64,000 nucleotides of DNA, from NCBI GenBank assembly GCA_028820635.1, contig JAPPIG010000115.1, positions 62,001 to 126,000 on the forward strand. The letters are read 5' to 3'. The notes under the pieces were generated by a model. That model saw only the letters and a program-made list of their open reading frames with translations, ran no database searches and was not told the origin of the DNA. A program made the translations under genes and the position numbers. Source of the stretch: Candidatus Poribacteria bacterium. GTDB taxonomy: Bacteria > Poribacteria > WGA-4E > WGA-3G. Positions 3,894-7,381 of this stretch are shown one piece after another (positions within the stretch are counted from its first letter, which is position 1; each line of letters starts with the position of its first letter).

Positions 3894-4084
3894 ATACCAT
3901 TTCTAAATAATAATATTACATTATTTCATAAATCGGTTGTAAGAATACAACACTCTCTTCTGTAGGAGCGACCTCGAATCAACGCCAAATGCGCCTTTGG
4001 CATTTGGCGGGTCGCGACCGGGAGGTCGCTCCTACAGAAGAGGCTCAAAAATAGAAATGATACTTTGTCAATTAGAAATGGTAT
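3894..4084. repeat. MITE-like element, family 2 (ends ATACCATTTCTAA / TTAGAAATGGTAT)
   Basis: A 191-bp non-coding unit bounded by inverted ends ATACCATTTCTAA and TTAGAAATGGTAT. Its core is a long palindrome starting TGTAGGAGCGACCTC and ending GAGGTCGCTCCTACA; the middle holds a second small hairpin module (AATCAACGCCAAATGCG with its TTTGGCATTTGGCG return) that is not in other copies. The same ends and core recur at 22.2, 34.4, 41.1 and 45.9 kb. No protein is encoded. Confidence 0.75.
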
Positions 4085-4104: not shown

Positions 4105-4240
4105 TATAGTGGATTTTACAATTAACTTGGCATTTTGATAGGTAGGAAGGAACTCCGATTCCCGATTACTAACGGCTTAGTCGCTATTCGGAGATCGCTC
4201 CTACAGAAGATGTGTCAACATATTTCTATAATTCACTATA
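4105..4240. repeat. MITE-like element, family 1 (ends TATAGTG / CACTATA)
   Basis: A 136-bp unit with imperfect terminal inverted repeats beginning TATAGTGGATTTTACAATTA and ending ATAATTCACTATA. The inside carries the palindrome module ending CGGAGATCGCTCCTACAG. TA dinucleotides at both ends would fit an IS630/mariner-type target site; that is inference. Related copies lie at 10793, 50027 and 57151. Together with the preceding element it fills the gap of 392 bp between the methyltransferase and the selenoprotein gene. Confidence 0.7.
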
Positions 4241-4263: not shown

Positions 4264-5619
4264 TTAGAGACCTTCTAATGCACTTATGATGGTGGAAGCA
4301 GAAGTCCTTGAATACGCAGAATCAAGAGATTTCCATCCAATCGTCCCATCCGTCTTAATGATAAAGACTGAAGGTCGGGGAAAATTGGTGTTACTTTGAT
4401 CAACAACGTTGTAATGAGAGGTTGTGCTTAGTCCGCTATCAGATAGCACAGTGAACGTAAGGCTAAGATCATCAACAGTATTTTTGGTTTCAGTGACGGT
4501 ATCGCCACCAATAGCAATGAGCGAGCCACCTGCTTCAGAGATTTCATCTGAATTTTCTTGCAACTCACTGAGTTGCGAACGACAAAACGGTCACCAGTTG
4601 CCCCTAAAAAACACGATGACTATATTACTGCTACCGATGCTGTCCGAAAGGGTGTAGTTGTTTCCATTACCGTCAGGTAACGTAAAATCTGGTGCTGCGG
4701 TGCCGATACTTAAGCCTTCGCCTGGATCCAGTGTCTCAGGCGGAGGGGGTGGTGCAGGAGCTGATTCGGTTGTGAAGGTGATGCTCACTTCCGTTTCGTT
4801 ACCAGCACTGTCTCTGGCAGTACCCGATATTTCATACGTAGTTTCGTGGCTGAGTTCTCGGCCAGCATTCGCTGTGAGCGTGATTGTATTCCCTGAAATG
4901 CTGGCGGTCCAACCGACATCTACTCCGTTTTTCAACAACTTCAGACTTCCACTGCTAATCGGTTCGCTGAAGGTGATTGTGATGCCACTTTCAAACACTG
5001 TTTCTGGGTCAACGTCTTCAGCACCGTCTGACAGACTACTGGTAGTGACCTCAGGCGAGGTGGTATCTCCTGCCATGACGTTGTAGCTGAGCGTGTGGCT
5101 TCCGTCCCCATTCGTCCAAGTAATCGTCAGGGTAAGCGAACCAACAGAGAAAGGTCCACTGATAGTCCGAGAACTACCAGAACCTGAAATTGTGCCTATG
5201 CTTGCTGTAACACTGCCTGGGTTGTTGTCAAAGTTGATGGTGATACTATCGTTCTCTGATATATCTCCGCTTGCAGGTGACGCACTTACAAACGTTGCGA
5301 CTGGGGTTTGAGGTACAACAGGTGTACCCTCCATTGAGTCCTCAATGTCATCAGAGGTATCCCCTTTTGAAGTTTCTTCTTCAGTGGAAGGTTCTTTCTT
5401 CTGATCCTCCGTGGTTTCATCAGTTTTGTCCTCCTGCGGTGCTTTGACGTCAGCAAGGGTGTCCTCAATAGTTACCTCAGTCTCAACAGGGGTCTCCTCC
5501 TTCGAAGCATCGTCATCAAGCATCGTCATAGGTTTCATAACCTGATTTTGCATTTCGTCACATCCAGTAGCGAATACAATTAAAACTGAGATTGATATTA
5601 TAGACAAAAATTTCATCAT
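4264..5619 (-). CDS. Probable selenoprotein: lipoprotein with two Ig-like domains and a C-terminal peroxiredoxin-like domain; in-frame TGA at 4591-4593 read as selenocysteine
   Basis: One reading frame of 452 codons is interrupted only by a TGA at codon 343. Upstream part: lipoprotein signal ending FATGC, an acidic Glu/Thr linker (about 35-105), two SbsA-type Ig-like domains (about 108-180 and 188-280), a proline-rich hinge, then the start of an AhpC/TSA fold (IGTAAPDFTLPDGNG). The frame reads VIVFFRGNW, TGA, PFCRSQLSELQ. In this peroxiredoxin-like family the motif is FYRGxWCPYC, so TGA sits exactly on the first (catalytic) cysteine and leaves UxxC. After TGA the same frame continues with conserved redoxin sequence to FIIKTDGTIGWKSL and a real stop. 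A hairpin 21 nt downstream of TGA fits a bacterial SECIS. The alternative, a pseudogene by a Cys-to-stop change, is less likely because the remainder is intact. The product would be an envelope-anchored thiol/selenol peroxidase or oxidoreductase. Confidence 0.82.
4557..4593 (-). promoter_or_regulatory. Candidate bacterial SECIS element with its UGA
   Basis: On the minus strand the UGA (4591-4593) is followed by 14 nt and then a perfect 7-bp stem GCAACTC / GAGTTGC with loop AGT (plus coordinates 4560-4576). The apical loop begins 21 nt after UGA and has a G in its first two positions, within the published bacterial SECIS geometry. The stem also has to encode protein (SQLSELQ), which limits how freely it can be read as structure. 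Confidence 0.65.
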
Positions 5620-5713: not shown

Positions 5714-6913
5714 CTACTGCGAGTCTTCTCCCACTTCTCTCGCTCCTTCAATTTCTTCCTCAGTCAATTGGAAGTCAAACACATCTTCCTCTTCGTCAAT
5801 ATCTGTTGTTTCTGTATCAGGCGGGGTGACCTGCTGTACCTCATCTGCGGGTTGTGCTTCCTCCTGCGTTTCAAGTTTTGGCGCGGTTGCACCGAGGATT
5901 GTTAATCCTACAATCGTCACAACACAAATACTTGTGACCGTCATTGCAATCGGGCGTTTCCAGAGAACCTTGCGCTCACTTCTATCTAAGAAGGGGAGGA
6001 ATAGCAGTAGCAACATGCCGACTGTCGGGATGACAAACGTCCCAAGAATTTCAAAGGGTCCTTGGAAGTATTTGAGCAGTTGAAACAAGAAAAGGAAATA
6101 CCATTCAGGACGTGGATCGTAATCCGCATTGGTTGGATCTGCCACATCTTCAAGCGGAACAGGTGCAAACAGCGCAGCACAGGCGAGTATAACAAAGAGG
6201 ATTAGCATGCCGACAACATCTTCAAATACCTGATCCGGATAAAAAGGTTTTCCCGTTTCCATATCCTCGGGTGTGTTCTTTGGTGTGCCAGAAGAGCCGT
6301 AGAATCGGACAAGGAAAAGATGCAGACCGACTAAACCGAAAGCCAACCACGGCAACCAAATCGTGTGCAGTGCGTAAAACCGTGACAGTGTTACCGCGCC
6401 GACCTCAGCACCACCGCGCATAATCTTTGCGACTACATCGCCTAACACAGGCGCGGCACTTGAGATTTCAATCCCGACAACCGTTGCCCAATACGCTTTT
6501 TCGTCCCACGGTAGCAGATATCCTGTAAATCCGAAACCGAGCGTGACCAATAACAGCAAAACACCAACGACCCATGTGAGTTCACGCGGTGCCTTGTAGG
6601 AACCGTAAAGCACAACGCGGAGTATATGCAGAAAGACGATGATGACCATCGCGCTGGCACCCCAATGGTGCAAACCGCGCACGAACTTACCAAACGGAAC
6701 TTCGTCATTGATGTAATTCACAGCATTATAGGCGTGGTCTGGTGAAGGAGAATAGGATAACGCCAAAAATGCCCCCGTTGCTGCTTGAAGTAGCAGCAGA
6801 AACATCGCCAAACTGCCGAGCGAAAAAAGCAGATTGATATGTTTCGGCAGTGGTTTGCGCAGATGCGCCATCACACCGTCTAATAGGAGGCGATCATTGA
6901 GGAATTGCTTCAT
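5714..6913 (-). CDS. Cytochrome b of a bc-type quinol oxidase complex (b6-like, fused with subunit IV part)
   Basis: 399 residues with about eight membrane segments. Haem ligands are visible as H82/H83...H96 (13 residues between H82 and H96) and H183...H198 (14 residues between), the 14-residue spacing being the cytochrome b6 pattern rather than the mitochondrial one. PEWYF (269-273) is the Qo-site motif normally in subunit IV, here on the same chain. The C-terminal 50 residues are acidic (EEEDVFDFQLTEEEIEGA) and extramembrane. The ATG directly abuts the stop of the Rieske gene upstream, so the two form an operon. No cytochrome c1/f gene follows; the electron acceptor must be encoded elsewhere. 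Confidence 0.95.
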   Translation of the reverse strand: MKQFLNDRLLLDGVMAHLRKPLPKHINLLFSLGSLAMFLLLLQAATGAFLALSYSPSPDHAYNAVNYINDEVPFGKFVRGLHHWGASAMVIIVFLHILRVVLYGSYKAPRELTWVVGVLLLLVTLGFGFTGYLLPWDEKAYWATVVGIEISSAAPVLGDVVAKIMRGGAEVGAVTLSRFYALHTIWLPWLAFGLVGLHLFLVRFYGSSGTPKNTPEDMETGKPFYPDQVFEDVVGMLILFVILACAALFAPVPLEDVADPTNADYDPRPEWYFLFLFQLLKYFQGPFEILGTFVIPTVGMLLLLFLPFLDRSERKVLWKRPIAMTVTSICVVTIVGLTILGATAPKLETQEEAQPADEVQQVTPPDTETTDIDEEEDVFDFQLTEEEIEGAREVGEDSQ

Positions 6914-7381
6914 TTACGCCTCCTTGACATATAAAAGTCCATTTTCTACTTTGACTTCAAGTTTCTGCAACGGTCTGGGTGGTGGACCAGCAACAACGGC
7001 TCCTGTCTTATCAAACACAGCACCGTGGCACGGGCAGAGGAACGATTCCTTGCTCTCGTCCCATCGCACAAGGCAACCGAGATGTGAGCATGTCCGTGAA
7101 AAGACGCTCCATGCTCCGTTACCGGCATCCGTCACGTAAACAGAACGTTTTTTTGTGGCTTTCACCCAACCATCTTTGGCTGTGAACGTATAATTGACCT
7201 TTTTGAAGCGGCTGTTTTTGAGACGGTCTACCGTGCCAACATCAACCCATTGCGATTCGCCTTTTTTCCATGCGGGGGAAATGGCAAATCCGATTAACGG
7301 GATACCAGCGGCTAAACTCATTAATCCACCAATGCAGGCGATGGCGATTTGTAAAAAAGAGCGTCTACCCTCTTTTGACAT
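6914..7381 (-). CDS. Rieske [2Fe-2S] protein of the cytochrome bc complex
   Basis: 155 residues. An RRSFLQ-type N-terminus followed by a hydrophobic segment (about 11-34) fits a Tat-exported, membrane-anchored Rieske subunit. Cluster boxes are CSHLGC (98-103) and CPCHGA (116-121): C98, H100, C116 and H119 as ligands and C103/C118 as the disulfide pair. GPPPRPL (132-138) is the conserved Pro loop. A strong GAGGAG site precedes the ATG. It is immediately followed by the cytochrome b gene with no gap, the usual order for the quinol oxidising complex of the electron transport chain. Confidence 0.95.
   Translation of the reverse strand: MSKEGRRSFLQIAIACIGGLMSLAAGIPLIGFAISPAWKKGESQWVDVGTVDRLKNSRFKKVNYTFTAKDGWVKATKKRSVYVTDAGNGAWSVFSRTCSHLGCLVRWDESKESFLCPCHGAVFDKTGAVVAGPPPRPLQKLEVKVENGLLYVKEA

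Follow-up and report, generated by a model that had tools for sequence, protein, structure and literature searches.

A predicted selenocysteine-containing Prx-like lipoprotein with Ig-like domains in a Poribacteria genome

Relation to described redoxin families

The TlpA/ResA thiol-disulfide oxidoreductases are membrane-anchored, extracytoplasmic proteins with a W-C-x-x-C motif. Selenoproteins that combine PF00578 with UxxC form an established 'Prx-like' thiol:disulfide oxidoreductase family ('Prx-like 1' of the GOS survey) to which, judged from its sequence, the redoxin domain described here belongs, the Pfam domain, the U-x-x-C motif, the Cys homologues and the bacterial SECIS (bSECIS) element all being shared (PMC13188914, PMC1088965, PMC2398784). 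What sets it apart from that family is its attachment to Ig-like domains and, at the N-terminus, to a lipoprotein signal; Prx, Prx-like 2 and Prx-like 3 fusions have been described in ocean metagenomes, with partners other than those found here (PMC2398784). The closest Cys homologues that we found are 'peroxiredoxin-like family' proteins (FYRGxWCPYC), which have Cys in place of Sec and are without the in-register hairpin described below.

Two further comparisons delimit the assignment. With the Sec-peroxiredoxin PrxU (TxxU) the fold superfamily is in common, but Sec here occupies the Thr/Ser position of TxxC rather than the peroxidatic position (the NF040737 score is 28, against a cut-off of 270), and a classical (seleno)peroxiredoxin of the PxxxTxxC/U type was rejected because Sec, not Thr/Ser, stands three residues before Cys346 (FFRGNWUPFC). 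The protein can be likened to TlpA/ResA in its predicted membrane anchoring and extracytoplasmic place and in its W-C-x-x-C layout, although it falls below the curated cut-offs (ResA 45.6 of 170). The label 'peroxiredoxin-like' given in the first-pass annotation thus holds for the redoxin domain, and is refined here to a Trx/TlpA-like U-x-x-C of the 'Prx-like' family, as opposed to the TxxU of true Sec-peroxiredoxins.

Gene and domain layout

The window, which is the whole 64-kb stretch of DNA that was analysed (G000:C9:62001-126000), comes from a MAG-like assembly of ~6 Mb in 136 contigs that is 94% complete. The lipoprotein reading frame reported earlier is present and lies on the minus strand, which had been omitted (Table 1). 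Its only in-frame TGA takes the place of the first Cys of a C-x-x-C motif, as had been proposed, giving FFRGNW-U-PFC in translation, and the frame indeed stays open beyond it for 108 sense codons followed by TAA. The match to PF00578 bridges the TGA codon. By sequence inspection and pattern, the N-terminus (MMKFLSIISISVLIVFATGC) has the signal peptide, lipobox and Cys+1 of a bacterial lipoprotein, with lipidation predicted; the lipobox is preserved in three orthologues (L022 and L023 among those named).

Table 1. Features of the selenoprotein gene, in window coordinates
Feature	Position	Strand	Basis or detail
Selenoprotein gene	4264..5619	(-)	ATG at 5619, TAA at 4264; 451 aa when the UGA is decoded as Sec
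Lipoprotein signal peptide, lipobox FATGC, Cys20 the predicted lipidated residue	5560..5619	(-)	sequence inspection and pattern
Acidic Thr/Glu-rich linker	5305..5559	(-)	translation
First Ig-like/beta-sandwich domain	5062..5295	(-)	weak CopC match, residues 109-186
Second Ig-like domain, Big_5 (PF13205)	4768..5067	(-)	Pfam, residues 185-284
Prx-like redoxin domain, AhpC-TSA (PF00578)	4333..4707	(-)	Pfam, residues 305-429, E 1.5e-27
UGA codon for predicted Sec343	4591..4593	(-)	translation and homologue comparison
Cys346, U-x-x-C partner	4582..4584	(-)	translation and homologue comparison
bSECIS hairpin	4560..4576	(-)	7 bp, AGU loop, UGA-to-loop 21 nt

Two neighbouring features were noted. Genes for cytochrome b and a Rieske iron-sulfur protein lie directly upstream on the same strand (window 5714-7381 (-), by sequence inspection). 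There is also an intergenic inverted repeat, ctgtaggagcgacctc ... gaggtcgctcctacag (window 3964-4037 and 4190-4210), with a partial second copy just past the selenoprotein gene; it resembles a dispersed element of the REP or MITE type.

The UGA site, its hairpin and the Sec machinery

To place the UGA codon in context, we use 41 readable redoxin domains, spread over 36 loci within the same class and gathered by matching the query domain. All 41 have TGA at the Sec343 site, and the length after U is 108-115 residues in 40 of the 41, counts that are not independent events since the homologues are mutually related and were selected by match. The match lists (from 40 related genomes of the phylum, then 16 further or repeated ones) contained no close homologue of the domain without the TGA. 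Cys homologues with the motif FYRGxWCPYC and ~30-43% identity are widespread in other phyla, as found with a search pattern that required Cys and that speaks to their existence, not their frequency; they align C-P-x-C onto U-P-x-C. The in-frame UGA is thus at a redox site that aligns with Cys, the homologues having TGA in the same class and Cys in other phyla. Among the three orthologues from G000, G016 and G009, the region 3' of the UGA is under purifying selection, with dN/dS somewhat above that of the upstream part (0.42-0.48 after the codon, 0.27-0.41 before it).

The hairpin that follows, GCAACUC-AGU-GAGUUGC, has arms at 4576-4570 and 4566-4560 around a loop at 4569-4567, and its first paired base is 14 nt past the UGA, so that the geometry is as first described and falls within bacterial SECIS constraints. 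The published bSECIS criteria are a loop of 3-9 nt, a stem of 4-16 bp, a G in the first two loop positions, a distance of 16-37 nt from the UGA and an MFE of at most -7.5; here the loop is 3 nt, the stem 7 bp, the G is present, the distance is 21 nt and the 37-nt segment running from the UGA folds at -10.7 kcal/mol. A lone hairpin is nevertheless weak evidence, because 12% of the TGA triplets across the window are followed by a 7-bp hairpin at a permitted distance and the single-sequence fold z-score is only -2.0.

Conservation of the hairpin in exact register across the 41 homologues, on the other hand, is more than would be expected by chance. At least six of the seven pairs form in every Sec homologue and all seven in 34/41; none of 81 Cys homologues has the full seven pairs in that register. 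In register, 97% of cells are paired, as compared with 14-52% after the partner has been shifted by 1-3 columns. The same constraint is seen in codon choice within the stem, where one Leu is CTC in 40/40 (background 19%), the Glu is GAG in 40/41 (28%) and another Leu is TTG in 39/41 (17%). Equally conserved Leu, Glu, Arg and Gly codons elsewhere in these domains vary: a conserved Leu outside the stem is CTC in 14, CTT in 13, CTG in 7 and TTA in 2, and a conserved Arg uses all six codons. Compensatory stem changes are also present, with CAG..CTG in L085 and L087 (A-U to G-C) and TTC..GAA in L047 (C-G to U-A). A frozen hairpin with compensatory changes makes this a clean natural case of a coding-region SECIS.

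The assembly that includes the window also contains all four genes for selenocysteine synthesis and insertion, selA, selB, selC and selD: SelA (531 bits), SelB (349 bits) directly adjoining tRNA-Sec (78 bits, anticodon tca (UCA)), and SelD (370 bits). The selD gene is a selenoprotein gene as well, with TGA at the catalytic CAG-U-ASK (G000:C112:62937-63863; L019, L090). Of 85 genomes in the phylum, 76 have SelB above its curated cut-off and 81 have a SelA match, some of the latter being weak matches to paralogues only. Two sampled genomes of family f6 (G039, 95% complete, and G042, 76%) have no SelA, no SelB above cut-off and no match to the redoxin domain, a joint absence that Sec dependence of the gene would predict. 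An orthologue adjoins or lies near the lipA-tRNASec-selB-lepB cluster in G009 (C1:2626500-2634500, L073) and in G016 (C94, L074); in G000 the cluster is on contig C49, away from the gene in the window.

Taken with the machinery, the TGA/Cys homologues and the conserved SECIS, which bear out the original proposal of a probable selenocysteine-containing peroxiredoxin-like lipoprotein, these data make it very probable (roughly 96%) that the gene encodes a genuine selenoprotein, an exported lipoprotein with Sec343 inserted at the UGA by SelB. We weighed two other explanations of the codon. If the UGA were an ordinary stop, the product would be a 342-aa Ig lipoprotein, with the downstream frame decaying or separately translated, and Ig lipoproteins without a redoxin domain do exist, many members of the genus having them as proteins of ~220 aa; this is highly improbable, however, given that the TGA, the downstream frame and the hairpin are kept in 41/41 domains across different fusion contexts, that selection after the UGA is purifying, and that both the PF00578 match and a confident predicted fold (pLDDT 94) run across the codon. 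Pseudogene decay was rejected on the same retention of the frame in 41/41 and on purifying selection. Genome-wide reassignment or suppression of UGA to another residue (Trp or Cys) would also leave the frame open, as any sense reading does, but several homologues from the same clade end on TGA as their own terminal stop, the Sec machinery is complete and a site-specific hairpin would serve no purpose; readthrough of this kind was rejected and is the least probable of the explanations considered.

For the selenoprotein, genes and RNA together suggest a conventional route. SelA, with selenophosphate from SelD, would make Sec-tRNA(UCA), which SelB would deliver to the UGA marked by the hairpin. 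Our picture of how bacterial selenocysteine works is unchanged; what is added is a well-supported selenoprotein that standard stop-codon reading splits in two.

Redox chemistry and lipoprotein architecture in the clade

Modelling of the C-terminal 159 residues with AlphaFold2, aligned with Cys homologues, gave a pLDDT of 94, and the nearest PDB folds are the Bcp4 and AhpE peroxiredoxins. A sequence alignment to 2cx3, a bacterioferritin-comigratory-type thiol peroxidase, pairs Cys346 with the peroxidatic Cys and Sec343 with a Ser/Thr position; in an alignment to ResA, Sec343 and Cys346 fall on C-x-x-C. With Sec accepted, the peroxiredoxin folds and the 2cx3 alignment could therefore be taken to indicate a Prx-type peroxidase with a peroxidatic Cys346 and a resolving Sec343, instead of an oxidoreductase in which Sec343 is the nucleophile. 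We regard this as possible but somewhat doubtful, since U-x-x-C preceded by Trp is the Trx/TlpA/ResA layout, which is also matched, and since the known family carries the name thiol:disulfide oxidoreductase. In the favoured reading, the protein would be held at the membrane through Cys20, with the acidic linker and the two Ig-like domains acting as a spacer that places the C-terminal thioredoxin-fold domain towards the periplasm or cell surface. There, outside the cytoplasm, Sec343-Cys346 may cycle as a selenenylsulfide/selenolate pair and so reduce disulfides or peroxides.

Of the 18 genomes sampled from the genus, three have the Ig-fused orthologue, and G011 may have a fourth in fragments. 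Other genomes of the genus have the ~220-aa Ig proteins without redoxin, so that two local families seem to have been fused in this gene. In the wider clade, paralogues carry CarboxypepD_reg between a Cys-bearing signal peptide (e.g. LLAAFGC) and the same UxxC module, which suggests that exported, lipid-anchored selenoproteins are recurrent there. The fusion to an Ig-like lipoprotein, previously singled out as an unusual place for a selenoprotein, is therefore real, but a lipoprotein setting is no one-off, as the paralogues use CarboxypepD_reg spacers.

No description of either the Ig-like or the CarboxypepD_reg lipoprotein arrangement was found in the literature searched, the coverage of which was incomplete, and only the Ig-fused architecture looks new. 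We tentatively suggest, at a little under even odds, that a set of envelope-anchored selenoenzymes has been expanded in this clade, with a single Prx-like UxxC module mounted on varied beta-sandwich spacers (Ig-like or CarboxypepD_reg). If so, this would be an extracytoplasmic selenium-dependent redox system undescribed in the literature searched. In either case, Sec, a trait found across the phylum in this uncultured group, serves several predicted exported lipoproteins.

The 64-kb window held no other convincing candidate for a TGA-containing redox motif. Elsewhere in the assembly, TGA occupies the peroxidatic position in two adjacent Prx genes (DFTGG-U-TAEL and DFGRG-U-TAEV; G000:C118:168750-169583, L203), as in classical Sec-peroxiredoxins. 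More thioredoxin-fold genes containing TGA are found at C62:54977-56404, C135:165581, C63:20014, C49:185428 and C45:63143, the types being two tandem Prx-like UxxC, one UPNC, one U-P-N-S, one WGSW-U-AC and one SelW-like CxxU. Counting the Sec343 gene and selD, the assembly has at least nine selenoprotein candidates.
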